64,000 nucleotides of DNA, taken from a virus. A program made the translations under genes and the position numbers. The stretch is taken from the IMG/VR virus record IMGVR_UViG_3300036800_000031, positions 1-64,000 of that record, one strand, 5' to 3'. Shown here piece after piece: positions 10,287-58,000 of this stretch (position 1 is the first letter of the stretch; each line of letters starts with the position of its first letter). The notes below the pieces were generated by a model that was not told the origin of the DNA, made no database searches, and was given only the letters and a program-made list of their open reading frames with translations.

Positions 10287-10492
10287 TCTCTCCATCCTTC
10301 CTCGATACGTCTGATGATTTTGTTGATCTCATTGGTGGTCAACTCTCGGTGCTCGGCCCGCGGCCAGAACGTGGTGATCGTCTTCCCGTTGATAAACCGC
10401 TGGACGTAGTGGTCGCCGGGGTGGTCGAGCGTTCCCTGGCACATCGGTTCGGCGCAATAGCCAAGAGCGATGGACACGGCGAGGTCTCTCAT
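10283..10492 (-). CDS. Small hypothetical protein
   Basis: 69 residues, MRDLAVSIALGYCAEPMCQG, with CAEPMC as a possible metal pair and a Glu/Ile helix at the end. ATG 10492 overlaps the stop of the helicase gene (TGATG). Position directly after the helicase suggests a replication accessory, but nothing proves it. Confidence 0.65.
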   Translation of the reverse strand: MRDLAVSIALGYCAEPMCQGTLDHPGDHYVQRFINGKTITTFWPRAEHRELTTNEINKIIRRIEEGWRE

Positions 10493-11739
10493 CAAAAGTC
10501 CCCCTGTGGTGAGGGAGCGGGAGTAACTTTCTTCTTCCAAGCCCCTACCCAAGGCCAGACGTCGCCGTGGCTCAGCGCCACCGGCCAGTCGGTCACCATC
10601 CGGTCTCCTCGGAAGCGTTCCAGCTTCCAGTTGTTGATGGAGGTTTTGTCCGGGCGAAGGCTGATGCCGATTTCCGGCCAGGCCTGCCACTGCTGGCTTC
10701 CATAGGGGCGGAGGTCACGTTGCCCGGCGTAACCGTTCGGGGCGTGGCTTTCGATCAGCAGGCCGAAGCCGTAGCGGGTACGGAGGTCATCCAGAACGGC
10801 CAAGAGTGGGGACGTCGCCTCCTCGTGGCTTTCGGTTCCGCCCCGTTGGCTACGACGGTGAACCATCTTGTAGATCGGGCCGATGCAAACCAGGTCCGGA
10901 CGTTGAAGGGTTATCTCCCGTTCCAACTCCGTCTTGCCGTGACGGGTGCGGGGGTCCATCCCGCCCGGCCGCTCAAAGATTCGGCACCGGGTCGGGTCGT
11001 AGTCGGGGATGTCACGGAGAAGCCGCTGGGCCATCCGGCCTCCGGTTTCAGCGATGGAAGCCGCCGGGTTCTCCAGGTCCACCACGAGGGTGCGAATCTT
11101 CGGGATGGTTTGGAACTTGAACGGGTGAAGCCCGTTCGCTGCCAGCATGGCGATCTGCCGGAGGATCACGCTCTTGCCCTGACCCTCCGAAGCGACGATG
11201 AGCGCCCGCCAGTCGCGGCGGATCATCCCGTCGATAATCCAAGGACTCATGTCGTCGGCGGTAGCGACGATTTCCTCCACGGTCCGCGCCCGTTGCTTGG
11301 ACGTGTCCGCCGGGGAGTCGATCATTCCGAGTTCCGCCGAGAGCCGGTCAGCCACTTCGTAGGGATCGTTGAGTTCCATTGCCGCCGCCGTCGCCTCAGC
11401 ACAAACCATCAACACCCTCCGCGCTGCGGCGTGCCGAGTGACAATACGGGCATACTCCCCGACGTTCCGTACTGACGGGACGCTCGACATATATCCGAGC
11501 ATCGTTGACCGGGCTTCCCCCGACATCTTCGCGGCGTCCCCCACGGTTTGGAGATCGACCGGTTGACCGGTTCCGTGGAGCTTCCTCATGGCAGCAAAGA
11601 GACTGGAGTTGGTCGGGACGTAGAAGTCCTCAGCCTCCACGATGTCGAGAGCGGCCTTCACTGCGTCCCCCGACAAGAGCATCGCCCCGATGAGGTCGCC
11701 TTCCGCTTCGGCGTTGAAGGGAATCGTTCGGATTGTCAC
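10492..11739 (-). CDS. DnaB-like replicative helicase / RepA-type ATPase
   Basis: 415 residues. Residues 8-110 match the DnaB N-terminal helical domain (DLIGAMLL...DFYVPTNSSLFAAM). The C-terminal RecA-like fold has Walker A ASEGQGKS near residue 184 and Walker B LVVDLE near 218. Both parts are shorter than in bacterial DnaB and the ATPase core looks more like the RepA/AAA_25 group. Likely hexameric helicase loaded by the initiator encoded just upstream, an O/P-like pair. Start overlaps the initiator's stop. Confidence 0.85.
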   Translation of the reverse strand: MTIRTIPFNAEAEGDLIGAMLLSGDAVKAALDIVEAEDFYVPTNSSLFAAMRKLHGTGQPVDLQTVGDAAKMSGEARSTMLGYMSSVPSVRNVGEYARIVTRHAAARRVLMVCAEATAAAMELNDPYEVADRLSAELGMIDSPADTSKQRARTVEEIVATADDMSPWIIDGMIRRDWRALIVASEGQGKSVILRQIAMLAANGLHPFKFQTIPKIRTLVVDLENPAASIAETGGRMAQRLLRDIPDYDPTRCRIFERPGGMDPRTRHGKTELEREITLQRPDLVCIGPIYKMVHRRSQRGGTESHEEATSPLLAVLDDLRTRYGFGLLIESHAPNGYAGQRDLRPYGSQQWQAWPEIGISLRPDKTSINNWKLERFRGDRMVTDWPVALSHGDVWPWVGAWKKKVTPAPSPQGDF

Positions 11740-12476
11740 AACGCGATCCGGTTTCCGCTGGCGTCGATGAAGAAGTGCTCATCCCCATCGGGAGTACCCC
11801 GCTCAGCGTTCCACTTCACCTGGTTCCGAATCCAGGTTTGCCAGGCCCGGTCCCACTTCACGAACTTCGTTCCGCGGGCCGCGTGGTAGTCGAGAAACTG
11901 CTGGGTTTCCCGGTCGAGATCGAGAGCTTCACCGCCGTTGCCTTTGGCCCAAGAACGCATGGAAGGGGTGATGGGGAAGGTGTCCGGCGCAGCCGTCTTT
12001 CGAGCCGTTTTGGTAAAGGACGGTTCTAAGGACGAGTCAAAGGACAAGTCGGGCGGTGTCAGACCGCCCCTGACCGGTACCGTAGACCGCCCCTGGATGT
12101 CCTGTAGACCGCCCCTGAGAGGCGGTGTCAGACCGCCCCTGTCAGGCGTGGCTAGACCGCCCCTGGCCGCGTCGCCTTCGGCCATCAACCAATGGGTAAG
12201 GGGGATCGAATACCGATGGGTTCGGTACCGGTCATCACGTTCCAAAGGCCCGCCCATGTGTTCTTCGACTTGAAGCTCTCCCAGGGAAACCAACCCCTTG
12301 ATCTCCCGCTGGACGGTGCGCCGGTTGGTAGCTGACCTTGATGCGATTGTTTCGTGGCTGGGCCAGGCGTTGGTGCCATCGTCATCGGCGCAATCGGCAA
12401 TGACGACCATCACGAGCCTCCCGGCCCCGGTTGACTTTGAGTGACGGAGAACCAGCCCCGTAACGAAACCGCTCAC
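11736..12476 (-). CDS. Replication initiator with HTH domain
   Basis: 246 residues. The N-terminus carries a winged helix (AWPSHETIASRSATNRRTVQ, about residues 37-57) typical of phage replication initiators. The middle, residues 105-140, is low-complexity (RGGL and TPP repeats) because the DNA there is a set of five repeats. A C-terminal helical domain (WDRAWQTWIRNQVKWN) probably contacts the helicase. GTG 12476 is overlapped by the stop of a 14-codon upstream frame. The gene order initiator-helicase with repeats inside the initiator resembles lambda O-P. Confidence 0.8.
   Translation of the reverse strand: MSGFVTGLVLRHSKSTGAGRLVMVVIADCADDDGTNAWPSHETIASRSATNRRTVQREIKGLVSLGELQVEEHMGGPLERDDRYRTHRYSIPLTHWLMAEGDAARGGLATPDRGGLTPPLRGGLQDIQGRSTVPVRGGLTPPDLSFDSSLEPSFTKTARKTAAPDTFPITPSMRSWAKGNGGEALDLDRETQQFLDYHAARGTKFVKWDRAWQTWIRNQVKWNAERGTPDGDEHFFIDASGNRIAL
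12052..12165. repeat. Five iteron-like direct repeats, candidate replication origin
   Basis: The 12-mer AGACCGCCCCTG occurs exactly at 12061, 12084, 12106, 12130 and 12154, a spacing of 22-24 bases, about two helix turns. Two copies are extended to 21 bases and contain a GGCGGT/ACCGCC dyad. The repeats encode RGGL in four copies but QGRS in the fifth reading frame, so selection acts on DNA rather than protein. On the left, AAGGAC recurs four times in a less GC-rich stretch (12015-12046) that could be an unwinding element. Confidence 0.7.
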
Positions 12477-12517
12477 GGCCGTCCTCGGCCGCTCGGTGAA
12501 GGTGTTACTGCGTACAT
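12473..12517 (-). CDS. 14-residue leader peptide (uORF) of the initiator
   Basis: ATG 12517 is preceded by a very strong AGTAGGAGG site, whereas the initiator's own GTG 12476 has none. The frame reads MYAVTPSPSGRGRP and its TGA overlaps the GTG (GTGA). Most simply, ribosomes load at the leader and re-start at the initiator, so initiator output depends on leader translation. The peptide itself may have no function. Confidence 0.55.
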   Translation of the reverse strand: MYAVTPSPSGRGRP

Positions 12518-12642
12518 CGAACCTCCTACTGCTCTAGATCGCGTGTCGGGGTCGGGAGTCGGGAGCGGTAGGAAAAAACACCGACCCCGACCCACGATCA
12601 CGCTTGACACACATCGGGAGCAACCCCGATGCCGTTGATACT
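12518..12642. promoter_or_regulatory. Initiator upstream region with two strong inverted repeats
   Basis: Two dyads: an 11-bp perfect stem (12545-12555 with 12581-12591) enclosing a T6 tract on the minus strand, and a 7-bp stem (12612-12618 with 12625-12631, 6-base loop). The region separates the membrane-protein gene from the initiator leader. They could be an attenuator/terminator or protein-binding sites controlling replication gene expression. Confidence 0.4.
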
Positions 12643-39861: not shown

Positions 39862-40059
39862 GACAGACCTCTTTCGATTGAATCAGGGAACGGACGCCCG
39901 GATAGGCGATCCAACGCTCTCCCGACGGTCAATCGGACCTGTCGTGGGGTGCTGAGGAGAAAGGTAGCGCAAGGAAGGGAGGAGGGTATGGGATACCCCC
40001 GAACGCGAAACGACCGGAGCCTTTTGGACCCCGGCCGAATCGCCTTCACAGTACCTACG
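39862..40059. promoter_or_regulatory. Capsid upstream region with dyad
   Basis: 198 bases between the tRNA array and capsid gene. Contains a perfect palindrome GGGTAT-GGG-ATACCC (39984-39998) and, on the minus strand, TTGACC upstream of CTATCC, a possible weak promoter. A separate promoter here would let capsid be transcribed apart from the tRNAs. Confidence 0.4.
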
Positions 40060-40130
40060 TGGCGGAGGGGAGACTCGAACTCCCGACTTCCTGGTTATGA
40101 GCCAGACGGGCTGCCGCTGCCCTACTCCGC
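40060..40130 (-). tRNA. tRNA-Met(CAT)
   Basis: Cloverleaf with loop CTCATAA, T-loop TTCGAGT and encoded CCA. Acceptor GCGGAG pairs six of seven. Elongator-like, short variable loop. The HNH gene upstream ends inside its 5' strand (stop TAG at 40122). Confidence 0.85.
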
Positions 40131-40661
40131 TGTGCTCATAGAAGCTACCAGGGTGGGCCTACCGATAGCAAGGTATGGCTCCCAAGCGGGGTCTGGCCGG
40201 ATTTTCAGGAGGTGGGCAGCGACGCCCTTGGGCCGGAAAGGGGTGTTGTGAAGTTCCCATCCCAGCGAGTCCAGGGTCTGGTGGCCCTTCTTCTGATTGC
40301 ATCTCCGGCAACAAGCGGTGACGTTCTCCCAGGTGTGCTTTCCACCGAGCGCCCTGGGGACGATGTGGTCGATGGTGCCGTCCTGGCGGACGTCCTTCTG
40401 GCAGTAGCCACACCGGTACCCATCTCGGGCACAGACGTTGGAAGTGATGAGCATGATGCTCCGGTGCTTCTCGGGCATCACGACGTACTTCCGAAGGACG
40501 AGGACCGAGGGGACCATGACCTGAGTAGACGGAGAGCGGAAGACTTCACCGCTGTATTCGATGGGGTCGGCAAGCTCCTCCAGGTAAAGCTCGACAGCAT
40601 CCCGGTCGCGAATGATCGCGAGGGGTTCTCTGCTGGCGTTCAGGAGGAGCGCCCTGTTCAT
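40122..40661 (-). CDS. HNH endonuclease
   Basis: 179 residues. RDGYRCGYCQKDVRQDGTIDHIVPRALGGKHTWENVTACCRRCNQKKG is a full HNH domain with two CxxC zinc pairs and the catalytic His of DHIVPR (near residues 95-140). The N-terminal part (LLNASREPLAIIRDRDAVELY) resembles actinobacterial HNH proteins. Its stop codon TAG is taken from the tRNA-Met 5' strand. Probably a free-standing homing-type nuclease. Confidence 0.88.
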   Translation of the reverse strand: MNRALLLNASREPLAIIRDRDAVELYLEELADPIEYSGEVFRSPSTQVMVPSVLVLRKYVVMPEKHRSIMLITSNVCARDGYRCGYCQKDVRQDGTIDHIVPRALGGKHTWENVTACCRRCNQKKGHQTLDSLGWELHNTPFRPKGVAAHLLKIRPDPAWEPYLAIGRPTLVASMSTAE

Positions 40662-40707
40662 CTGATTCTCGGTCTCTTTGTCATCGTCACTGCTTTCTGG
40701 TTGATTC

Positions 40708-40794
40708 TGGTCTCAGCGGCGGGAGTCGAACCCGCATGGCCGTTCAGGCCAGCCCGTTTTGAGCGGGGTGCGTATTCCGTTCCGCCACGCTGAG
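40708..40794 (-). tRNA. tRNA-Leu(CAA)
   Basis: Class II tRNA with long variable arm, anticodon loop CTCAAAA, acceptor CTCAGCG/CGCTGAG, T-loop TTCGACT and encoded CCA. Decodes UUG. Confidence 0.88.
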
Positions 40795-40812
40795 GTGATC
40801 TGAATAGTCCAA

Positions 40813-40899
40813 TGGTGCGAACGGGGAGAGTCGAACTCCCACTGGGCCGAGCCCACCACAGTCTCAGTGTGGCCTGTCTACCGATTCCAGCACGCTCGC
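40813..40899 (-). tRNA. tRNA-Leu(GAG)
   Basis: Class II, loop CTGAGAC between five-pair stem CCACA/TGTGG, long variable arm, encoded CCA. Decodes CUC/CUU. Confidence 0.88.
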
Positions 40900-40900
40900 A

Positions 40901-40972
40901 TGGTGCCCCCGCCCGGAATCGAACCGGGATCGGCCTGATTAGAAGTCAGAGGACGGATTCCATCCCGAGGGC
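40901..40972 (-). tRNA. tRNA-Arg(TCT)
   Basis: Loop CTTCTAA on stem CTGA/TCAG, acceptor GCCCTCG/CGGGGGC, T-loop TTCGATT, CCA encoded. Reads AGA/AGG, rare in GC-rich hosts. Confidence 0.88.
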
Positions 40973-40973
40973 T

Positions 40974-41044
40974 TGGTACCGGAGCCGAGAATCGAACTCG
41001 GTCGCCACGATTATGAGCCGTGGGCCTGCCCAGCAAATCCGGCA
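40974..41044 (-). tRNA. tRNA-Met(CAT), second
   Basis: Loop CTCATAA on CACGG/TCGTG, acceptor TGCCGGA/TCCGGTA, CCA encoded. Could be elongator Met or, if modified at C34, Ile(AUA); a separate Ile(TAT) makes Met more likely. A small open frame runs into it. Confidence 0.8.
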
Positions 41045-41193
41045 AGATCAGATCGAATCTCCCGTGTGGCCTCTCGCTTCTCCTGGGCACGGGTAATGCG
41101 CTCGGGGCGTAGCCAGGAGTTGACCTCGCACATCCGATGCCCGTGGACAGGGCAGTGTGCGTTGATACCGATGTGCCCACGCATTTTCGCCAT
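41011..41193 (-). CDS. Small His/Cys protein in the tRNA array
   Basis: About 60 residues, MAKMRGHIGINAHCPVHGHR with a basic helical middle (NSWLRPERITRAQEKREATRE). It starts 15 bases past tRNA-His and its TAA lies in the anticodon loop of tRNA-Met. HCPVHGH could bind zinc. Start uncertain (GTG 41199, ATG 41193 or 41184). Possibly a reduced nuclease or accessory of the HNH-tRNA cassettes. Confidence 0.45.
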   Translation of the reverse strand: MAKMRGHIGINAHCPVHGHRMCEVNSWLRPERITRAQEKREATREIRSDLAGFAGQAHGS

Positions 41194-41207
41194 GAGCACA
41201 TCGTAGG

Positions 41208-41283
41208 TGGGGTGGATGAGGGGAATCGAACCCCCTAACAGACACGGTCACAGCGTGCTCCCTCGCCATTTGGGTTCATCCAC
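41208..41283 (-). tRNA. tRNA-His(GTG)
   Basis: Loop CTGTGAC, acceptor GTGGATG/CATCCAC with discriminator C and CCA encoded. No encoded G-1 is apparent, unlike most bacterial tRNA-His. Confidence 0.82.
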
Positions 41284-41285
41284 AG

Positions 41286-41357
41286 TCCACCAGGTAGGGA
41301 TCGAACCTACGACCTTCACTTTGTAAGAGTGCTGCGCTCCCGCTGCGCCACTGGTGG
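41286..41357 (-). tRNA. tRNA-Val(TAC)
   Basis: Loop CTTACAA on CACT/AGTG, acceptor CCACCAG/CTGGTGG perfect, T-loop TTCGATC. CCA not encoded. Confidence 0.87.
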
Positions 41358-41414
41358 TTGATGCTGGGGCCGGAGGATCGTAGGCAGGCCCTTACCTCCC
41401 CTCCGGCCTTAGCG

Positions 41415-41487
41415 TGCCCCCGGCAGGAATCGAACCCGCTCATCCTCCGATTAAAAGTCGGCTGACCTCCCACTGGCCTACAAGGGC
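41415..41487 (-). tRNA. tRNA-Lys(TTT)
   Basis: Loop CTTTTAA on CCGA/TCGG, acceptor GCCCTTG/CGGGGGC, T-loop TTCGATT. No CCA. Confidence 0.87.
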
Positions 41488-41488
41488 A

Positions 41489-41565
41489 TGGTCCCCACCC
41501 TGGGTGTCGAACCCAGTGTCTTCCGAGTATCAGTCGGACGCCTTCACCGTCTGGCCCGATGGGGA
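41489..41565 (-). tRNA. tRNA-Ile(GAT)
   Basis: Loop CTGATAC on CCGA/TCGG, acceptor TCCCCAT/GTGGGGA, T-loop TTCGACA, CCA encoded. Confidence 0.86.
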
Positions 41566-41608
41566 TAAGTCAGGGCGGGATGGCAGCGAACCACCATCAC
41601 CGCCCCGG

Positions 41609-41681
41609 TGCCCGCAGAGGGTCTCGATCCCCCGGCCTTCGGCGTGTCGTGCCGACGCTCTCCCAACTGAGCTATGCGAGC
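41609..41681 (-). tRNA. tRNA-Val(GAC), unusual loops
   Basis: All four stems pair (acceptor GCTCGCA/TGCGGGC, anticodon TCGGC/GCCGA). The anticodon loop is ACGACAC, with C33 instead of the near-universal U33, and the T-loop is ATCGAGA with A54. May be functional with altered loop geometry, or decaying. Confidence 0.7.
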
Positions 41682-41837
41682 TTGGTGGAAACTCTCTCCC
41701 GGTCACGTCTGGCGACCGAACGGCACCGAGAGGGATGAACTCCGATGCTTCACGGTCGGCGGCTTCAGCCACGTTCATCAGCGCGTGACGCCACCCAGCG
41801 ACGTTCCTGAGAAGGAGGAGACAGGCTCCCCCTTCGG

Positions 41838-41910
41838 TGGTTCCCGCCGGGATCGAACCGACGCCTTCCGGGCTTCAACCGGACGCTGCTGCCAACTAAG
41901 CTAGAGAACC
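41838..41910 (-). tRNA. tRNA-Phe(GAA)
   Basis: Loop TTGAAGC on TCCGG/CCGGA, acceptor GGTTCTC/GGGAACC (one wobble), T-loop TTCGATC. Its 3' acceptor strand pairs perfectly with the tRNA 5' half at 42380-42416, showing that an HNH insertion split an older copy and supplied this 5' half. Confidence 0.86.
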
Positions 41911-42368
41911 TTGTTTTTTCTCCCCCGCCAGGTCGGCGTAAGGGCATGGCAGTTGGGGCATAGGATCGCCAGGTTCTCGATCCGGTGATCGTCCTTCACC
42001 CCGTTCATATGGTCAACCTCCAGTGGTATTGGCTGACCCATCCACTGGACCCGCTTGCACTCTTTACATTGACGCTTCCGCCCCTGCGCCAAGAGAATGG
42101 GCAGGAGGTGATAGGTCGGGTAGGTCGAGTTCTCGCAAAAGATTTCCTCCAGCGTGCGCCGACGAAGGGGCGCTCCACGGGTACCAACCCAGGACTGCCC
42201 GGTGAAGTGGCTGACATCGGCCCCAAGCCGCTTTGCATGTCTCTGGACCGAGCCGTAGTTGCCTCCGGCGAGATTAAGGCCGACTCCCCTGACTACCTGC
42301 GCCCAACTGGTCGAGGCGACGATGGCCTCCAGTAGCTCGGAATCGGTCCATGACCTCGGCTTGCCCAT
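41901..42368 (-). CDS. HNH endonuclease inserted in tRNA-Phe
   Basis: 155 residues. N-terminal DNA-binding region (SWTDSELLEAIVASTSWAQ), then a C-terminal HNH: CKECKRVQWMGQ, LEVDHMNGVKDDHRIENL and CPNCHALTPTW. The last codons and the stop TAG come from the 5' strand of tRNA-Phe; ATG 42368 starts just after a tRNA 5' half. Same subfamily as the broken copy at 43866-44301. A homing-type nuclease targeting the tRNA anticodon region is likely. Confidence 0.85.
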   Translation of the reverse strand: MGKPRSWTDSELLEAIVASTSWAQVVRGVGLNLAGGNYGSVQRHAKRLGADVSHFTGQSWVGTRGAPLRRRTLEEIFCENSTYPTYHLLPILLAQGRKRQCKECKRVQWMGQPIPLEVDHMNGVKDDHRIENLAILCPNCHALTPTWRGRKNKVL

Positions 42369-42379
42369 GCCGTAGTCTA

Positions 42380-42416
42380 CCGTTACGGACGCTCTCCCTG
42401 ACTGAGCTAGGGAACC
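42380..42416 (-). pseudogene. tRNA-Phe 5' half (split remnant)
   Basis: GGTTCCC, D-arm GCTC/GAGC and the first bases of the anticodon stem (GTCCG) match tRNA-Phe at 41838-41910, then the sequence changes to that of the HNH cassette. No 3' half follows directly. The break falls in the anticodon arm. Confidence 0.75.
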
Positions 42417-42417
42417 T

Positions 42418-42492
42418 TGGTGCGGCCCGGAGGAATCGAACCCCATCCGAGAGGGCATAAGCCTCTCTGCGGCCACCAGCCGCACGAGCCGC
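42418..42492 (-). tRNA. tRNA-Ile(TAT)
   Basis: Loop CTTATGC on AGAGG/CCTCT, acceptor GCGGCTC/GGGCCGC, CCA encoded. Reads AUA directly, so lysidine modification is not needed. Confidence 0.84.
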
Positions 42493-42493
42493 A

Positions 42494-42566
42494 TGGAGCC
42501 GTCGCTGGGGGTCAAACCCAGCCGGGCGTCGTTACAAAGGACACCTCCGCATCGGGCGGCGACGGC
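42494..42566 (-). tRNA. tRNA-Thr(TGT), divergent
   Basis: Acceptor GCCGTCG/CGACGGC perfect and CCA encoded. Loop TTTGTAA, but the closing pair 31-39 is C-C; D-arm is CCGC/GCGG and the T-loop TTTGACC lacks C56. Anticodon TGT is my best reading. Confidence 0.65.
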
Positions 42567-42567
42567 A

Positions 42568-42646
42568 TGGCTGGGGAGGAGGGCCTCGAACCCCCAAGGA
42601 ATCCTGTTTCAAAGACAGGCGACTTTGCCACTTTGTCTACTCCCCA
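42568..42646 (-). tRNA. tRNA-Gln(TTG)
   Basis: Loop CTTTGAA on CCTGT/ACAGG, acceptor TGGGGAG/CTCCCCA, T-loop TTCGAGG, CCA encoded. U1-A72 is typical for Gln. Confidence 0.86.
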
Positions 42647-42647
42647 A

Positions 42648-42721
42648 TGGAACGGACGAAGGGAATCGAACCCTCATAGTCAGATTGGAAGTCTGACGTT
42701 CTACCGTTGAACTACGTCCGC
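42648..42721 (-). tRNA. tRNA-Gly(TCC)
   Basis: Loop CTTCCAA on CAGA/TCTG, acceptor GCGGACG/CGTCCGT, T-loop TTCGATT, CCA encoded. Confidence 0.86.
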
Positions 42722-42835
42722 ATGGTGGACAGAGAGAAGATGCTCTCGACGTATTACCGCCGTAAGTGTGACCCTCCCCTTTCCCAAGACCGTGGCATTG
42801 CCAGCTTGGGTTAGGCGTCTGCCCAGCGCCATCGG

Positions 42836-42907
42836 AGCGAATGACGGGGGTCGAACCCGCGACCTTCTCGTTGGCAACGAGACGCTCTACCACTGAGCCA
42901 CATTCGC
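42836..42907 (-). tRNA. tRNA-Gly(GCC)
   Basis: Loop TTGCCAA on TCTCG/CGAGA, acceptor GCGAATG/CATTCGC perfect, T-loop TTCGACC. Only CC of CCA is encoded. Confidence 0.87.
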
Positions 42908-42909
42908 AT

Positions 42910-42983
42910 TGGAGGCTGGACCCGGAATCGAACCGGGCTGACGCGGGTTGCAACCGCGCACCTCACCACTCGGCCATCCAGCC
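42910..42983 (-). tRNA. tRNA-Cys(GCA)
   Basis: Loop TTGCAAC on CGCGG/CCGCG, acceptor GGCTGGA/TCCAGCC, discriminator U as expected for Cys, CCA encoded. Confidence 0.88.
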
Positions 42984-42987
42984 AAAG

Positions 42988-43058
42988 CCCCCTCGCTAGG
43001 TAACGATCCCAGTTCTTCCGATTAACAGTCGGACGTGTGGCCTTCACACCGCAAGGGG
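42988..43058 (-). tRNA. tRNA-Asn(GTT)
   Basis: Loop CTGTTAA on CCGA/TCGG, acceptor CCCCTTG/CGAGGGG, D-arm GTGTG/CACAC, T-loop ATCGTTA with A54. HNH gene ends five bases upstream. Confidence 0.75.
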
Positions 43059-43062
43059 AAAA

Positions 43063-43473
43063 TCAAGCCACCACCTGCCGGTTGGCGCACCCACCCATTC
43101 GGTAGATCCGTTTGGCCTCCCTGCATCGGGAACACCGGCAGCCGTTTGGCATGTTGTACCGAGCACCTGTTCCGTGAGGTGGTACCGGCAACTTGTTGTG
43201 TCCACCACCAGAAGCCATATCTCCGGCTTCTTTCCCTTTCTCTATGTGGAGGGCATGGCAAAGAAGTTGACATTTCTCCAACTCGACCAAGAGGTTCTCC
43301 ATCGAGTGAGAGAGCATGTTCGCTATCCCCTCGACCTTTGTAGTCCGGTCGATGTGGTCTATTTCTAGGCGGTCTGTCGTACCGCAACGGACGCATTCAC
43401 CTCCGAGGAAGTCGATAACGAACTCTCGTCGCTTCTTCCGACGTTCGACCATGTAGGTGTTCATATCTGCCAT
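43063..43473 (-). CDS. HNH endonuclease (tRNA-linked)
   Basis: About 136 residues (ATG 43473 or 43479). ECVRCGTTDRLEIDHIDRTTK near residues 25-46, then KCQLLCHALHIEK completes an HNH domain; the C-terminus has a second Cys set (CRCSRCREAKR). Basic N-terminus. Located between tRNA-Asn and a short acceptor-like hairpin, so another member of the tRNA-colonising nucleases. Confidence 0.82.
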   Translation of the reverse strand: MADMNTYMVERRKKRREFVIDFLGGECVRCGTTDRLEIDHIDRTTKVEGIANMLSHSMENLLVELEKCQLLCHALHIEKGKEAGDMASGGGHNKLPVPPHGTGARYNMPNGCRCSRCREAKRIYRMGGCANRQVVA

Positions 43474-43539
43474 CGGCATAGGGGTTAACCGTACTACCGA
43501 CGCCGACTGAGCACCCCCGCCAAGAGGGTCCGGTCAGGA

Positions 43540-43590
43540 TGGTGCCAGGCTTTCCGCCCCACTCGATCCCCGAAGGGTTACGAACCTGGC
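43540..43590 (-). pseudogene. Collapsed tRNA-like element
   Basis: Acceptor-like strands GCCAGGT and GCCTGGC pair over seven positions and are followed by A and CCA, but only 51 bases lie between the ends, too few for a tRNA. Probably the result of an internal deletion. Confidence 0.45.
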
Positions 43591-43602
43591 TGGTGGTCTT
43601 CG

Positions 43603-43674
43603 TAGCGCGTGCGGGTGTTGATCCCGCGGCCTCCTGACTGAGAATCAGGCGTTCTCCCGTTGAACTAACGCGCC
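43603..43674 (-). tRNA. tRNA-Glu(CTC)
   Basis: Loop TTCTCAG on CCTGA/TCAGG, acceptor GGCGCGT/ACGCGCT, T-loop ATCAACA with A54. No CCA. Confidence 0.8.
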
Positions 43675-43675
43675 T

Positions 43676-43750
43676 TGGTACAGCGACGGAGAATCGAACT
43701 CCGATTACCAGGGTGAAAACCTGGCCTCTTCGCCGTTAGAGGATCGCTGC
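43676..43750 (-). tRNA. tRNA-Glu(TTC)
   Basis: Loop TTTTCAC on CCAGG/CCTGG, acceptor GCAGCGA/TCGCTGT, T-loop TTCGATT, CCA encoded. Confidence 0.86.
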
Positions 43751-43816
43751 ATGAAGCTGAGTAGCCGCCACCCCAGGTACCCAGGTGACCAGTGAAGCCC
43801 CGGCGGACTGCCCCGG

Positions 43817-43900
43817 CGGAGAGTACAGGTGTCGATCCCGCGGACTTTCATCCGTATCCCTGCTTTCAAGGCAGGTTCCCAGGCCGCTGGGATACTCTCC
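43817..43900 (-). tRNA. tRNA-Ser(TGA)
   Basis: Class II, loop CTTGAAA on CCTGC/GCAGG, acceptor GGAGAGT/ACTCTCC perfect, long variable arm, T-loop ATCGACA. The frame of the broken HNH gene runs into it. Confidence 0.85.
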
Positions 43901-44301
43901 CTGCTCGGGCTCGAACGGTGTTCTTGCCCTTGTAGGTTTCCGTCTGAGCGTGACAGTTCGCGCAGAGCAGACGGAGATTCTCGATGCGGTGGTCATCGTT
44001 GATCCATCTCCAACGGAGCTGGCTCGCCGTTCCATTCGGTCAGGCCACACCGATCACACTTCGGCTGCTTGATCCCCTCTCGGAGAAGCCGCCGTTTCAC
44101 GTTGCCGGTGCTGTAGGTGGAGTGCTCCACTAGCACCGACTCCAGGGACCTCTGGTTGCCCCGTGGGGTCGCCCACGGCCTCGTGTGGGAGGTCGAGCAA
44201 CTGATGGAGCAGTAGGCCCGCTGGGTCTGAGACAGGAAGTTGTGACAGGAGCCATTCCCGCAAACATGCTGGCTGCGACCAGCGATCGGGAGCCAACTCA
44301 T
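43866..44301 (-). pseudogene. Frameshifted HNH endonuclease
   Basis: Intact first frame from ATG 44301: CGNGSCHNFLSQTQRAYC, LESVLVEHSTYSTGNVKRRLL, KCDRCGLTEWNGEPAPLEMD, then QR and a stop. The next frame continues with DDHRIENLRLLCANCHAQTETYKG, so a short deletion removed the catalytic His segment and the frame. Homologous to the intact gene at 41901-42368. The second frame ends in the anticodon loop of tRNA-Ser(TGA). Confidence 0.8.
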
Positions 44302-44346
44302 GACGACAGCTTACTATCCTGTTCGGGCGACCGAATGGCCGTCCAG

Positions 44347-44429
44347 CGGAAGTGGTCGGGGTCGAACCGACAGGGGCTTTCACCCGTAGACGCTTAGCGG
44401 GCGTCCTGCTCACCATTCGCATCACTTCC
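44347..44429 (-). tRNA. tRNA-Ser(GCT), C33
   Basis: Class II, acceptor GGAAGTG/CACTTCC perfect, anticodon stem GACGC/GCGTC, loop CCGCTAA with C at position 33, long variable arm, T-loop TTCGACC. Reads AGC/AGU. Confidence 0.82.
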
Positions 44430-44433
44430 AAAG

Positions 44434-44501
44434 AACCCCCGCTGGGAATCGAACCCAGCCAGCCGGTTTAGGAAACCAGCGCCCCTTCCACGGGCGAGGG
44501 C
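44434..44501 (-). tRNA. tRNA-Arg(CCT)
   Basis: Loop TTCCTAA on CTGGT/ACCGG, acceptor GCCCTCG/CGGGGGT, short D-arm CCC/GGG, T-loop TTCGATT. Length 68 is at the low end. Confidence 0.78.
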
Positions 44502-44502
44502 A

Positions 44503-44578
44503 TGGAGCCGACAGCCGGGATCGAACCGGCCACCTACGCGTTACGAGTGCGTCGCTCTCCCTACTGAGCTATGTCGGC
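44503..44578 (-). tRNA. tRNA-Thr(CGT)
   Basis: Loop CTCGTAA, acceptor GCCGACA/TGTCGGC perfect, CCA encoded; one A-C mismatch closes the anticodon stem. Confidence 0.85.
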
Positions 44579-44579
44579 A

Positions 44580-44656
44580 TGGAGCCACGACGGGGGATCG
44601 AACCCCGGACCTCCTACTTACCAAGCAGGCGCTCTCCCTGACTGAGCTATCGCGGC
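44580..44656 (-). tRNA. tRNA-Thr(GGT)
   Basis: Loop TTGGTAA on CCTGC/GTAGG, acceptor GCCGCGA/TCGTGGC, T-loop TTCGATC, CCA encoded. Confidence 0.87.
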
Positions 44657-44730
44657 CGGACCGGCTAGACCATCAGCGCCCTTCCGGGTTGATTACGTCA
44701 GGGACGTTGTACACCGTCCTTTTCGCCGAG

Positions 44731-44799
44731 TGGCCAAGGTGGGACTCGAACCCACAGGGCGTTCCTTCGGAGGGATCGCTGCATTCCATCGCCTTGGCC
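44731..44799 (-). tRNA. tRNA-Arg(CCG)
   Basis: Acceptor GGCCAAG/CTTGGCC perfect, T-arm GTGGG/CCCAC, loop CTCCGAA giving CCG. D-arm irregular and anticodon stem has one mismatch, so slightly less sure. Confidence 0.75.
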
Positions 44800-44800
44800 C

Positions 44801-44876
44801 TGGTACCCCCATCCAGGGTCGAACTGAAATCTTCGGTTCCGTAGACCGACGCTCTGATCCATTGAGCTATGAGGGC
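44801..44876 (-). tRNA. tRNA-Arg(ACG)
   Basis: Loop CTACGGA on TCGGT/ACCGA, acceptor GCCCTCA/TGGGGGT, T-loop TTCGACC, CCA encoded. A34 would need deamination to inosine. Confidence 0.84.
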
Positions 44877-44879
44877 AAG

Positions 44880-44993
44880 AAAAAAGCGGACCTCCCACTC
44901 GCAGGCCGGTATGCCTTCCGACCCCGTACACTCGGCTCGGGCACCACCCCTTCGCCACGTCGCAATCATGCTGGTGGTAAGACGGTCCGCTTT
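44880..44993 (-). ncRNA. Candidate structured RNA with terminal T tract
   Basis: A 10-bp stem (AAAGCGGACC with GGTCCGCTTT) closes about 90 bases that contain further pairings (ACCACC/GGTGGT, CCGA/TCGG). On the minus strand the closing stem runs straight into six T. It lies between tRNA-Asp and tRNA-Arg(ACG). Could be a small RNA, or a terminator with a large loop. Confidence 0.35.
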
Positions 44994-45048
44994 CGGGACA
45001 GCCGCCCTGTGGCGGCTTTTCATCGCAGGATTGCCTGCGCATCCCGAG

Positions 45049-45121
45049 CGGTCGTGACCGGTTTTGATCCGGCTACCTCCACCTTGACAGGGTGGCGCTC
45101 TCCCGAGTGAGCTACACGACC
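45049..45121 (-). tRNA. tRNA-Asp(GTC)
   Basis: Loop CTGTCAA on CCACC/GGTGG, acceptor GGTCGTG/CACGACC perfect, discriminator G, T-loop ATCAAAA with A54. Confidence 0.83.
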
Positions 45122-45122
45122 T

Positions 45123-45199
45123 TGGTCCGCTAGACAGGATTTGAACCTGCGACCTCATCGTCCCGAACGATGCGCGCTCCCTAGCTGCGCTACTAGCGG
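45123..45199 (-). tRNA. tRNA-Pro(CGG)
   Basis: Loop TTCGGGA on CATCG/CGATG, acceptor CCGCTAG/CTAGCGG perfect, T-loop TTCAAAT, CCA encoded. Confidence 0.88.
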
Positions 45200-45200
45200 T

Positions 45201-45274
45201 TGGCTCCCCAGCCAAGGGTCGAACTTGGATACCGAGATTCAGAATCTCGTGTGCTGCCATTACACCACCGGGGA
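45201..45274 (-). tRNA. tRNA-Gln(CTG)
   Basis: Loop TTCTGAA on CGAGA/TCTCG, acceptor TCCCCGG/CTGGGGA, T-loop TTCGACC, discriminator G, CCA encoded. Confidence 0.87.
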
Positions 45275-45347
45275 AGGCTGCGGACTCTGCCGCGGGTCAC
45301 GCCTAGTTAGGGTCGGCGTTCACCCATGCCCGGTGATCAGTCGGGAG

Positions 45348-45419
45348 TCGGATACCGGAGAGTCGAACTCCGCTGGGCCTGGCCCCAAACCAGGTGCCTA
45401 ACCGATCGGCATGTATCCG
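45348..45419 (-). tRNA. tRNA-Pro(TGG)
   Basis: Loop TTTGGGG on CCTGG/CCAGG, acceptor CGGATAC/GTATCCG perfect, T-loop TTCGACT. No CCA. Confidence 0.87.
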
Positions 45420-45493
45420 GTGTCGCTGTCTCTCCAGCAGCAACGTCTGGTATCCCCAGGTCTAAGTAGGGGTTCGGGACGACGTTCTCCCGG

Positions 45494-45565
45494 TCGGACT
45501 GGAGGGGATCGAACCCTCGACTTCTCGGCCCCCAGCCGAGCGCTCTACCTCTGAGCCACAGTCCG
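45494..45565 (-). tRNA. tRNA-Pro(GGG)
   Basis: Loop CTGGGGG on CTCGG/CCGAG, acceptor CGGACTG/CAGTCCG perfect, T-loop TTCGATC. Confidence 0.88.
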
Positions 45566-45613
45566 GTGAAACCTGACCCGCTGCCAGTAGACAGTTGCCC
45601 CGGAGGGCTTCAC
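45566..45613 (-). other. Acceptor-like hairpin in tRNA spacer
   Basis: GTGAAGCC pairs with GGTTTCAC over eight positions across a 32-base loop. Looks like a shrunken tRNA or a processing hairpin between Pro(GGG) and Lys(CTT). Confidence 0.3.
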
Positions 45614-45669
45614 ATGCGTGTGCACCTCGCATGAACGACGGAATGGATTATCACCGTCCCGAGTCATTG

Positions 45670-45742
45670 TGCGCCCGGTGGGGTTTGAACCCACGACCTT
45701 GGGATTAAGAATCCCCTGCTCTCCCGGCTGAGCTACAAGCGC
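45670..45742 (-). tRNA. tRNA-Lys(CTT)
   Basis: Loop TTCTTAA, acceptor GCGCTTG/CGGGCGC, D-arm GCTC/GAGC, T-loop TTCAAAC. One mismatch at the base of the anticodon stem. Confidence 0.84.
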
Positions 45743-45743
45743 C

Positions 45744-45828
45744 TGGTGCGTGTGGAGGGAGTCGAACCCTCAGCCCCGAAGGGCACCGCTTCTGGGGCGG
45801 CTGCGTATACCAGTTCCGCCACGAACGC
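45744..45828 (-). tRNA. tRNA-Leu(CAG), C33
   Basis: Class II with long variable arm, anticodon stem GCCGC/GCGGT, loop CCCAGAA with C at position 33, CCA encoded. Two mismatches in the acceptor stem (GCGTTCG/CACACGC). Confidence 0.78.
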
Positions 45829-45863
45829 AGGATGGGCAGTTTTCAGACTTGGCCCAGGTCGCG

Positions 45864-45936
45864 TGGAGCCTACGAGGATCGAACTCGTTACCTCCTGTTT
45901 GCAAAACAGGCGCTCTCCCGGATGAGCTAAGGCCCC
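45864..45936 (-). tRNA. tRNA-Ala(TGC)
   Basis: Loop TTTGCAA on CCTGT/ACAGG, acceptor GGGGCCT/AGGCTCC, T-loop TTCGATC. The G3-U70 identity pair of alanine tRNAs is present. Confidence 0.88.
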
Positions 45937-45942
45937 AAAGCT

Positions 45943-45976
45943 AGGATGCGGGCTGCCATTACACCACCGCAGCCCC
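45943..45976 (-). pseudogene. tRNA 5'-half remnant
   Basis: On the minus strand the D-arm pattern GGTGGTGTAATGGCAGC, as in tRNA-Gln(CTG), follows a GC-rich acceptor-like start, but no anticodon arm or T-arm follows before tRNA-Ala. Confidence 0.5.
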
Positions 45977-46011
45977 CGAGGGGGTGAAAGTTCCCTTGCG
46001 GTTGCTCTCTT

Positions 46012-46045
46012 ACGCGACGTGGAATCGAACCACGACCTCATCCTC
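46012..46045 (-). pseudogene. tRNA 3'-half remnant
   Basis: T-arm CGTGG-TTCGATT-CCACG followed by an acceptor-like GTCGCGT, directly downstream of tRNA-Tyr. No matching 5' strand lies upstream, and it does not pair with the 5' half at 45943-45976. Confidence 0.5.
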
Positions 46046-46046
46046 G

Positions 46047-46125
46047 TCCGCCGCCTCAGAATCGAACTGAGCGTGCTTGCGCGGCTGGTTTACAGCCAGC
46101 CTGGCCCCCTTGGCGCGTGCGACGG
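46047..46125 (-). tRNA. tRNA-Tyr(GTA)
   Basis: Loop CTGTAAA on GCTGG/CCAGC, acceptor CCGTCGC/GCGGCGG, medium variable arm (CGCGCAAGCACG), T-loop TTCGATT. Confidence 0.84.
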
Positions 46126-46129
46126 ATGC

Positions 46130-46210
46130 GGGACGGTCGGTACCCGGGCAACTGCCCGGCCCGTCCCATTTGGACTATTCAGCGTGACGGGTTTTGTTCG
46201 GTACCGTCAC
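46130..46210 (-). other. Two tRNA-spacer hairpins
   Basis: 46130-46167: GGGACGG/CCGTCCC stem with an inner CCGGGC/GCCCGG hairpin. 46184-46210: GTGACGG/CCGTCAC stem with 13-base loop. Both have seven-pair stems like acceptor stems but no other tRNA parts. Possible processing signals or collapsed tRNAs. Confidence 0.35.
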
Positions 46211-46266
46211 TATCGCCTGCTACCTCCCTCACTCGCCATGACGGACGAGGTACTGAGGTTTGAAGC

Positions 46267-46300
46267 ATGGGTGGAGGGAGTCGAACCCCCCTTCACCTCG
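46267..46300 (-). pseudogene. tRNA-Trp-like 3' half (split gene)
   Basis: T-arm (GGGG-TTCGACT-CCCT) and acceptor strand CCACCCA, complementary in six of seven positions to the 5' half at 46724-46761. The two halves are separated by an HNH gene and an intact tRNA-Trp. Confidence 0.7.
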
Positions 46301-46371
46301 CATGGGCGTCAGGAATCGAACCTGATCGGCGAGAGTTTTGGAGACTCTCCGGCTACCTCAGCCTCGCCCAT
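46301..46371 (-). tRNA. tRNA-Trp(CCA)
   Basis: Loop CTCCAAA on GAGAGT/ACTCTC, acceptor ATGGGCG/CGCCCAT perfect, T-loop TTCGATT, discriminator G. The gene lies entirely inside the 3' end of the HNH reading frame, as if carried by that cassette. Confidence 0.86.
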
Positions 46372-51450: not shown

Positions 51451-51478
51451 CACGGCTCTCTGTCTAGTTGATATGCGG

Positions 51479-51557
51479 TAGCGGGGGTGGGATTCGAACC
51501 CACGACCTCCGACCCGAAAGTGAGTCGGCGAGCTAACCGGGCTGCTCTACCCCGCGC
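51479..51557 (-). tRNA. Initiator-like tRNA with altered anticodon loop
   Basis: Acceptor CGCGGGG/CCCCGCT with the unpaired first position, D-arm GAGC/GCTC and T-arm GTGGG-TTCGAAT-CCCAC are those of actinobacterial tRNA-fMet. But the anticodon arm CCGAC/GTCGG encloses ten bases (TCACTTTCGG) with no CAT. It lies alone, 4.7 kb from the array, and supplies the stop codon of the adjacent glycosyltransferase. Function and decoding are unclear; could be a decoy, remnant or attachment-site copy. Confidence 0.6.
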
Positions 51558-54855: not shown

Positions 54856-55058
54856 TGCTGGGGAGGGGAGGTGGAAGGCTTGACGTTCGGCCGGTCCGGA
54901 GCGTCTTCGTCCGGCTGGTGGAGGGCTTCTACGAGGTCAGGGTCTGGATGGAAGTCGTCGTCTGGCCCGAAGATCATCCACGGTGGCTTACCTTGCGCCG
55001 CCCGATCTGGCCTCTTGAACTTTGCCATTGCTTCCTCGTAGTCGGATTTATCGCTCAC
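54852..55058 (-). CDS. Small acidic protein
   Basis: 68 residues: MSDKSDYEEAMAKFKRPDRA, then GPDDDFHPDPDLVEALHQPD and a Pro/Ser tail. GTG 55058 overlaps the stop of the giant gene. Low complexity; perhaps a chaperone or adaptor for it. Confidence 0.6.
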   Translation of the reverse strand: MSDKSDYEEAMAKFKRPDRAAQGKPPWMIFGPDDDFHPDPDLVEALHQPDEDAPDRPNVKPSTSPPQQ

Positions 55059-58000
55059 TTGGCAAAAGCCTCCAACTGCTTCAAGTATACGTGGGTGATA
55101 GCGCCGACCTTCTTGACGCTCTCGACTTGGAACTTACCGGCAGAAATCGTTTCCACTTCGCTGTCGTAGTTGACGACTCTCCCGACGTCCAACGACACGG
55201 TTCCAGCCGGAGCGTGAATCCAAAAATCGCGGGGCGGGTTGCTACCGGACCAGGCATTCGGGTCAGTAGACCAAGACGTCAACGGGATGTCAACCTTGTT
55301 GCCGACCGTCGTGAGGGAAGCGATAACCGAAGCGGGCATTCCACTCTTGTACAGCTTCCGCTGGAAGGCTTGCTTGTTCGGTTCTCCCTTTTCAATGTAC
55401 ATCTGAGCGATCTGTTTCGCCGCCTTCGCTGCCTGCCCGTTGCCAGGGTCATGTCCTTGGGCCATCTTGTCGAGCGCAGTGTTCATGGCGGAATGGCTAT
55501 AGCGGTAGTTGGCCTTCCACATCCCCACCGACCCAAGCTCCGAGGAGGTGAAGGACAGCTGAGTGTCGCTCTGGTTGTTCTTGTACGGGTTCCCGCTCTG
55601 TACCGACGTATAGGCACCGTGACCGCTCTTGTCGGCGAGCACCCCTTGGTGGATGATCGACTTAGAGGAGGCATTCGGGTGTTGGTCGGGGTTCTTCTTC
55701 AAGTCAACCGCGGCCTTACCGGCTCCCTGAGCCAGACCGGCAAGGTGAGCCTGGTCGATGATCCCGGATTCGTCACTGGGCTGGCCGAGGGCCGTCGCTT
55801 GGTCGAGATACCCCTGGGCGGCTCCGTTGATCTGTTCCGGCGTCTTCCCTTGGAGATGTGCCGCTATTGCTTGGTCATAACCCTGAGCGATGGCTTGGTT
55901 GTAGCCGACTTCGGAGGCTGTGGTGGCGTGAGCGGGCTTCGTCCCGTGGGGGATCGTGTCGGGGACGGTCTTCGGGGTCTGTGTGTCCTTTACTTCAAAC
56001 GGAGTTTTAGACGTGTAGAAGGAGTTGACCTTCTCGATGAACTCCTTCTCCTGGGCCTTCTTCGCTTCACTCTTGTGGGTCTTCGCCCATTCCTGCTGAC
56101 TTGCCATCGCCCCGGCGAACTTGCCCTTGGCGATTGCAGCTTCTTCGGTCCCAGGCTGGGAATCCTTCTGAGCCTTGTCCAACTTTGCCATTTCGGTGTT
56201 ATCAGGCGGCGCTGTCGTAGATGCAGATGAGTAGGCAGCGTCGTAGGCGTCGTTGTGGTAGCCGGGGTGCTGGTGGAAGGGTTCCCCGTTGCTGGCCGTG
56301 TCCCCGGTGAAGTGGATCGGTTGAGCCTTTGCCTTCAATGAAGAAGGCATCCCGCTGGTGGAGGGGGAATATCCCGGCCCGGCCGCTGCCTTCGCCGCGC
56401 TGGCCTGAGCGGACCCGGTAGAGAACTGGGCGTGCCCCGGCTTGATCTTCGTCACCTTGGTGGTCGAAAGGCCAGGCTTGAAATCACTCTCTCCGGCGTT
56501 CGGGTTCCCGTTCTCCTTGACGTAGAAGTGAGTGCCCATCGAGTTTGTGGCGGTGATGGTGTGGCCGACGTTGCCGATCAGGATTTGGTCCCCGGCCTTC
56601 AAGTTCTTCGCCATCACCTGGCTCTTGGTCGGCCCCTTCGGCTTCGGAGTAGATCGTCCACCGACAACCTTGGAAACCAGTAGGTTCGGATTGGTGCTGA
56701 TGTGTTGGAACGGGCTTCCAATGGTCTTCCCGGTACTGTTCATCTTTTGGAGAGTGAAAGCCCCCGACGGGCTGACCGCCATCACCTTGTACTTAGTACC
56801 GCCCTTGGTCTTCCAGACGTCGCCGGGCTTCAAGTCCTTCTTCGCTACCTCGACGGTGCCCGGTGACAGTGAAACCTGTGGTGATGCCTGTGGCGATGGA
56901 GTGCTGACCGACGCCTTCACCCCGCCCTTCTGGTTGGGACCGCCCAGCGGGCCTCCTGCGGCCTTGTGCTCGGCTGCTGCGGCTTTGATGCCGTGGTTCA
57001 TGCCGGAAGACTGGGCGAAGCCGCTCATCTCCCCGGCCTTCTTCGACTTCTTCCCCTTGTTGTAGTGGCTGAACGCTGCCAACTGCATCTCGTGGACGGT
57101 GGAACCGTTCGCCGCCATCTGCTTGCCGAGGAGGTACCCCTGGTTGAAGCCTTCTTGGTAGTGGGGCTTGTTCTCGGCGGGGATTTCGGGAGGCAGAGAC
57201 TTCGGGAAGGGGACAGCCGGAGCTTCGACCGGCTTCCCACCCGGACCTTCGTTTTTGACGGTGAAGCCTGGCCCGTAGTTGGAAACGGGCGGAGGGTTGC
57301 TGAACGAGTCGCTGACGTGACCCGGCTGGACGGTGGACTTGTAAACCGTCGCGGCCAAGAGATGAGCTTGGATGTCTGCCTGGCGGGAAGCCAGAGTGTT
57401 GAGAACTTCTTCCCGGTGAGCCTTCGGGATTCCGGCGTCCTGCATCTTCTGATCGACGTTTTCCAAGTTGAGGTTCGCCGCTACCTGGAGACTGCCCTTC
57501 ACCTGGAGCGGGTCCGGGTTCGATCCGTAGAGGAACTTCCCCTGGTCACTGGCGAGCAATGACTTGTCCTCTACTACTTCCTTGCCCCAACTGACCTTCA
57601 CTGCGCCCATCGCCCGGAACTTGCCCGCTCCGCCGATGTCGATACGGACGACGTTGCCGTTCGCGTCCTTGAACACGTTGTCATTGGTCAGCCCGGCGAC
57701 GTCGTGATTGGCCGTGAGGACGTCGATCCCGAACCCCTGGACGCCCTTTACCTTCTCCGTCGGGAGTCCCTGGAGGGGAGTCAGTCCTTCGATTTTCTTG
57801 CTGACCACGGAGAGTGAACCGTCGCCATTCGTCAAAATCGTGGTGTGGGGAACCGTGATCCCGGCGGCTTCGTACACCTTGCCCATCGCCACTTCGTTGT
57901 AGGCGTGCTCGTTCGAGTTCGCGGGCTTCACGAGGTAGCTCGATCCGTCAGCCGCCTTGTACCACTGACCCCCGTTGCTCCCCAGCGGACCGCTGATCTT

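Follow-up and report, generated by a model that had tools for sequence, protein, structure and literature searches.

The segment between approximately positions 11985 and 12165 of the window analysed here (64,000 nucleotides, positions 1 to 64,000 of the 89,253-bp virus record IMGVR_UViG_3300036800_000031) is very probably the phage's replication origin, located inside the phage's own initiator gene. Its central component is an array of five identical 12-mers, which an earlier note had singled out as a likely origin. That proposal gains support from the profile matches of the initiator, the lambda O-like architecture, frame-breaking linker repeats in dozens of phages, the A+T-rich neighbouring stretch, and the co-variation between a DNA-reading helix and the iterons in relatives. 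Inverted half-sites, the A+T-rich flank and a hairpin were overlooked in the earlier reading. The components are listed in Table 1. An uncultured phage of 89 kb is thereby assigned a likely origin of replication.

Table 1. Components of the putative origin and adjacent genes (window coordinates).
Feature	Position	Strand	Remarks
DnaB-like helicase gene	10492..11739	-	PF00772 1.7e-19, PF13481 7.8e-14, phrog_19 4e-20; directly downstream of initiator gene
Replication initiator gene	11736..12476	-	GTG start, 246 aa, winged helix
Minimal hairpin CGGC(GCA)GCCG	11985..11995	+ (opposite coding strand)	position of relatives' hairpin
Candidate unwinding element	12009..12047	.	gene's most A+T-rich 39 nt: 56% vs 38% mean
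Inverted half-site of last iteron	12051..12057	+	7/7 match
Iteron copy 5	12061..12072	+	adjoins A+T-rich stretch
Iteron copy 4	12084..12095	+	different codon frame, QGRS not RGGL
Iteron copy 3	12106..12117	+	
Iteron copy 2	12130..12141	+	recognisable inverted half-site
Iteron copy 1 (gene order)	12154..12165	+	gene sense CAGGGGCGGTCT

Iterons in the linker of the initiator

The protein matches HTH_36 (PF13730; E-value 2.1e-11, 43.9 bits against a gathering cut-off of 25), phrog_1032, annotated "replication initiation protein" (9e-20), and O-like phrogs. These matches bear out its designation as a replication initiator in the earlier note. AlphaFold models an N-terminal winged helix (aa 1-105), a disordered linker (approximately aa 106-160) and a C-terminal helical domain (aa 161-226), with pLDDT values around 95 over most of both domains and below 50 at residues 112-132 and in short runs up to 154. 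The fold is the common winged helix (best Z about 8-9, the DnaD N-terminal domain being among the matches listed) and is non-diagnostic alone. Scanning against Pfam gave no match to the RepA_N domain at an E-value of 0.1 and none to Rep_3; in Rep_3 plasmids, unlike here, the iterons lie outside the gene.

Upstream of the initiator gene are one small gene and then genes for an ERF recombinase and an exonuclease. Inspection by eye revealed a 14-codon frame at 12477-12517 (minus strand), with its ATG at 12517 behind AGGAGG and a TGA that overlaps the initiator GTG, suggesting translational coupling. An inverted repeat at 12537-12599, just upstream of the initiator gene (19-nt arms, 89% complementary, 25 nt between), is a possible regulatory element.

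The 12-mer AGACCGCCCCTG, read as CAGGGGCGGTCT in the sense of the gene, occurs five times without a mismatch, with start-to-start distances of 23, 22, 24 and 24, as the 22-24 base spacing given previously had it. The array proper spans 12061-12165; the start at 12052 reported before takes in an inverted half-copy (12051-12057), which lies outside the repeats themselves and is part of the feature. Four copies are read (x)RGGL and the copy at 12084 is read QGRS in another phase, in agreement with the claim that one copy uses a different frame. Identity among the copies is confined to the 12-bp cores, the spacers being different. No further exact copy of the 12-mer is present anywhere in the 89,253-bp record; nor does this record, simple repeats excluded, contain any other 10- or 12-mer with at least four non-overlapping copies within 250 nt. 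Chance as the source of the array is ruled out by shuffling. When the initiator gene was recoded synonymously 20,000 times, no 12-mer reached four copies (the maximum, three copies, was seen in 3 runs), and in 20 doublet-Markov genomes of the same length no 12-mer ever exceeded two copies within 120 nt. The recodings also uphold the view that the DNA itself, not the peptide, is conserved.

An inverted half-site, ACCGCCC, lies 5 bp after the iteron in copy 5 (7/7), copy 2 (6/7) and copy 1 (4/7). The copy nearest the A+T-rich stretch thereby forms GGGCGGT-CTGAC-ACCGCCC at 12051-12069; the weaker half-sites are at 12120-12126 (6/7) and 12144-12150 (4/7). Among the five copies examined, 3 and 4 have no such inverted half. 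Summed over all five, the matches give p=0.002.

The gene's A+T maximum lies just beyond the array. It contains WAAGGAC at 12015, 12027 and 12039, with a 12-bp period (its gene sense includes GAACCGTC). The A+T richness of this stretch is modest and the same maximum is reached by 63% of synonymous recodings; the stretch is therefore dictated by the peptide, or else selection acts on both. The hairpin further along has a stem of only 4 bp, which arises in 0.5% of synonymous recodings. The array covers codons 104-139, the A+T-rich stretch codons 144-156 and the hairpin codons 161-164; therefore, nearly the whole element falls in the linker.

Comparative survey of initiator genes

Initiator genes were gathered through helicase neighbours, initiator profiles and public phages, and 135 non-redundant ones were retained. 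Two overlapping surveys were made, the second selection also comprising 135 genes, out of 197. Many of the relatives are sphingomonad or pseudomonad prophages, and the counts given below are not of independent events. A gene was scored as carrying repeats if its strongest exact repeat was equalled in no more than 1 of 100 synonymous shuffles. By this measure, repeats were found in 99/135 phage initiators against 3/190 control open reading frames from the same loci, and strong mixed-frame repeats in 89/135 against 1/190. As many as 205 of 265 spacings are not a multiple of 3, the commonest being 22, 23, 17 and 16 bp. The repeat words vary between phages, as do the linker peptides that they encode, and the location is mostly mid-gene, in the same linker. 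Judging from these sequences, the intragenic-repeat layout is common among phages, and frame-breaking repeats in an initiator linker may serve as a sequence-only signature for finding phage origins.

L006, the relative most similar in its C-terminal domain (56% over 68 residues), differs in both its N-terminal domain and its linker repeats, which consist of GAAGCAA words followed by ACAGAG repeats (L006:4852-4967). This is as expected if N-terminal domain and iterons travel together. Among public phages, none was found to be related to the replication region at the nucleotide level, and no relative of this phage close enough for a direct test of conservation was found. A scan of viral contigs with lambda O returned only near-identical copies. 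In freshwater viral relatives of the helicase locus (L012-L054), inspection of the translations by eye showed a gene for an SNF2-like helicase (about 650 aa) directly before the initiator gene.

Elements flanking the array recur in the relatives. As in this phage, an inverted copy often comes after the terminal iteron on the A+T side (L125, L111, L063, L072). Past the array, A+T content is raised by about 0.14 at +12 to +48 nt and nowhere else (91 genes with at least three copies), and in 53 of these 91 genes the A+T maximum of the gene falls within the 90 nt that follow the array, 10% being expected. The excess consists of A on the coding strand, G being depleted. Words of the GAACC[AG]TC type recur past the arrays in 60/135 genes (12.9 in shuffles), and in 43 genes ACC[AG]TC is read in at least two frames.

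Hairpins were searched with a stem of at least 5 bp, C-G closed, and a coding-strand loop TNC or TNNC, which corresponds on the opposite strand to C(GNA)G or C(GNNA)G. From the thermodynamics of DNA, loops of these latter two types are expected to be unusually stable. Such a hairpin is found +30 to +80 past the array in 33/135 genes, against 0.55 in shuffles (maximum 3). Other positions gave 0 or 1 genes and the mirror loop type gave 2. The stems keep their pairing despite differences in sequence, and their codon phase varies. In lambda's own sequence, the same analysis found iterons in mixed frames, the A+T maximum right after them and, on the non-coding strand, the palindrome GTCAGAGGATTC(GCCA)GAATTCTCTGAC, whose 12-pair stem requires a G·T pair available only on that strand. 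Coding-strand A·C mismatches (G·T on the other strand) occur in two relatives and lambda, and coding-strand G·T in none. These mismatch types, although few, are consistent with a hairpin on the non-coding strand. Calculated folding energies revealed no difference between the two DNA strands of the hairpin. This recurring, strand-specific hairpin could be a concrete candidate for the helicase or primase loading step.

Helix residues and iteron bases

Co-variation was counted in 67 HTH_36 initiators with CCCCG-containing iterons. The base that follows CCCCG can be predicted from the residue preceding the conserved Arg in helix 3: it is A in 26 of 27 cases with Asp, and one of the other bases in 31 of 33 with Glu (Fisher 1.4e-13, uncorrected for relatedness). 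Where Gln is changed to Arg three residues further, CCCCGG replaces CCCCCG (5/6 under the strict pattern, against 0/61 otherwise). Likewise, an Arg directly after Gln accompanies a shifted CA (8/8 against 0/21). On a tree built without the code residues, Asp and Glu interchange nine times, and of three independent pairs on supported branches an average of 2.9 agree. The direction of the relationship is clear from the sequences, the formal phylogenetic test being underpowered with three supported pairs, too few for significance. The data suggest that individual positions in the DNA-reading helix correspond to individual bases of the iteron, tying each initiator to its own repeats, and provide a testable recognition code for HTH_36 initiators. 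The helix and iteron of the present phage (ATNRRTVQREI in the helix) are outside the class in which co-variation was counted; its iteron is similar to those of the GGGG[T/C]G class, whose initiators have VQR helices.

Origin model, alternatives and known systems

Iteron binding, melting, helicase loading and use of the element as an origin are steps that we infer from this arrangement. The N-terminal winged helix of the initiator would bind the five iterons which, being about two helical turns apart, would place the bound copies on one face of the DNA. The bound initiators would bend or wrap the iteron DNA, and the strain would open the adjoining A+T-rich stretch. The C-terminal domain, on its flexible linker, would then recruit the DnaB-like helicase encoded next door and forks would be set up. 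The amino acid sequence of the linker would be largely a by-product of selection acting on the DNA. GC skew, suggested earlier as a check, is only weakly compatible with this scheme: its cumulative minimum lies at 17.3 kb, 5 kb from the array.

The converse relationship between DNA and peptide, in which RGGL-T-PP motifs function in the linker and the DNA repeats are a mere consequence, could account for four of the five copies sharing one frame (RGGL) in a linker rich in disorder-promoting residues, as elsewhere. We consider it highly improbable, given the out-of-frame copy (QGRS), the failure of recodings ever to yield four exact copies, the predominance of frame-breaking spacings among the relatives (205/265) and the variation of the peptides among phages; the synonymous shuffles lead us to reject it. 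Equally improbable is that the array is a site for partition, packaging or recombination, or the relic of a recent tandem duplication. Direct-repeat arrays do act as centromeres in some prophages, and parS repeats are found beside repA (PMC7157519). However, many phages have arrays of other words in this position, again at two-turn spacing, and these words track the initiator helix; as to a fresh duplication, it is countered by the identity being limited to 12-bp cores between differing spacers.

Slightly less remote, and still improbable, is the idea that the repeats are an operator through which the initiator regulates transcription of its own gene or of the helicase gene, the origin being elsewhere. 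The initiator is predicted to bind the repeats in this case as well, the array lies within the transcription unit, and the GC skew does not point exactly at it. Against this stand the lack of any other iteron array in the record, the origin-like series of A+T stretch, recurring words and hairpin past the relatives' arrays, and the use of the same arrangement as an origin by lambda, SPP1 and pSK41.

For lambda and the Stx phages, it is established that the origin lies within the initiator gene (PMC7466680, PMC5043065), and the earlier remark that lambda O carries its own iterons and origin agrees with this literature. With oriλ (PMC7466680, PMC5043065) the phage shares several frame-independent iterons, placed mid-gene in the initiator and spaced 20-24 bp in mixed frames, and dyad symmetry. 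Its A+T-rich stretch 3′ of the iterons and its minimal hairpin are candidate counterparts of the A+T-rich stretch of oriλ and of the non-coding-strand palindrome there, which has a C(GCCA)G loop. The phage differs from oriλ in that the iteron sequence is unrelated and has one constant half-site with a degenerate second half (clear in 3/5 copies), the hairpin has 4 bp in place of 12 pairs, and the A+T-rich stretch is much less A+T-rich. In addition, no P-like loader gene follows the initiator as in the lambdoid O-P module; the next gene specifies a DnaB-like helicase, whereas the lambda neighbour is the P-type loader.

In SPP1, oriL lies in gene 38, with direct repeats and an A+T-rich unwinding element within the gene for the origin-binding protein (PMC6316719). 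The phage resembles it in carrying direct repeats and a candidate unwinding element inside the initiator gene; SPP1, however, possesses an additional origin, oriR, together with a separate loader (gp39), whereas no second array was found in this record. The staphylococcal Rep proteins of pSK41 and pPR9 provide a plasmid counterpart: the boxes are central in rep, are bound by the N-terminal winged helix and encode a dispensable linker (PMC5703833). The N-terminal domain of pPR9 belongs to pfam13730, as does that of the phage initiator, and is exchanged together with the origin, the hybrid initiator supporting replication (PMC5703833). Unlike the phage protein, pSK41 Rep has a RepA_N domain, and its C-terminal domain binds DnaG primase, in contrast to the helicase recruitment proposed here. 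Phage initiators of the phrog_1032/HTH_36 type are of the same protein family and many share the intragenic array layout, with different iteron words. With lambda, Stx phages, SPP1 and pSK41 as precedents, the phage would by analogy be a further case of an already established arrangement.

Whether many phages share a four-part origin in the initiator gene appears to us evenly balanced. In such an origin, replicon-specific iterons, legible from a few helix residues, would end in an inverted copy; beyond them would come an A+T-rich region in which certain words recur and a strand-specific hairpin of the non-coding strand, capped by an unusually stable DNA loop of the C(GNA)G or C(GNNA)G type. 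The hairpin would fold upon duplex opening and fix the strand receiving the helicase or the first primer, the lambda palindrome being the classic example. In the limited open-access literature searched, we found no description of how widespread the layout is, of the helix-iteron code or of the strand-specific hairpin, all of which may be reported elsewhere.

Capsid, portal and tape-measure matches identify the 89,253-bp record as a tailed phage. Its first 40 bases return at 89126 as part of a direct terminal repeat some 128 bp long (about 1-128 and 89126-89253), so the record is probably complete. It also harbours 35 tRNA genes covering all 20 amino acids (40059-46371 and 51477-51556), 34 of them in one cluster, and a 2209-aa open reading frame (55055-61684, minus strand) between portal-like and head-protease-like genes.
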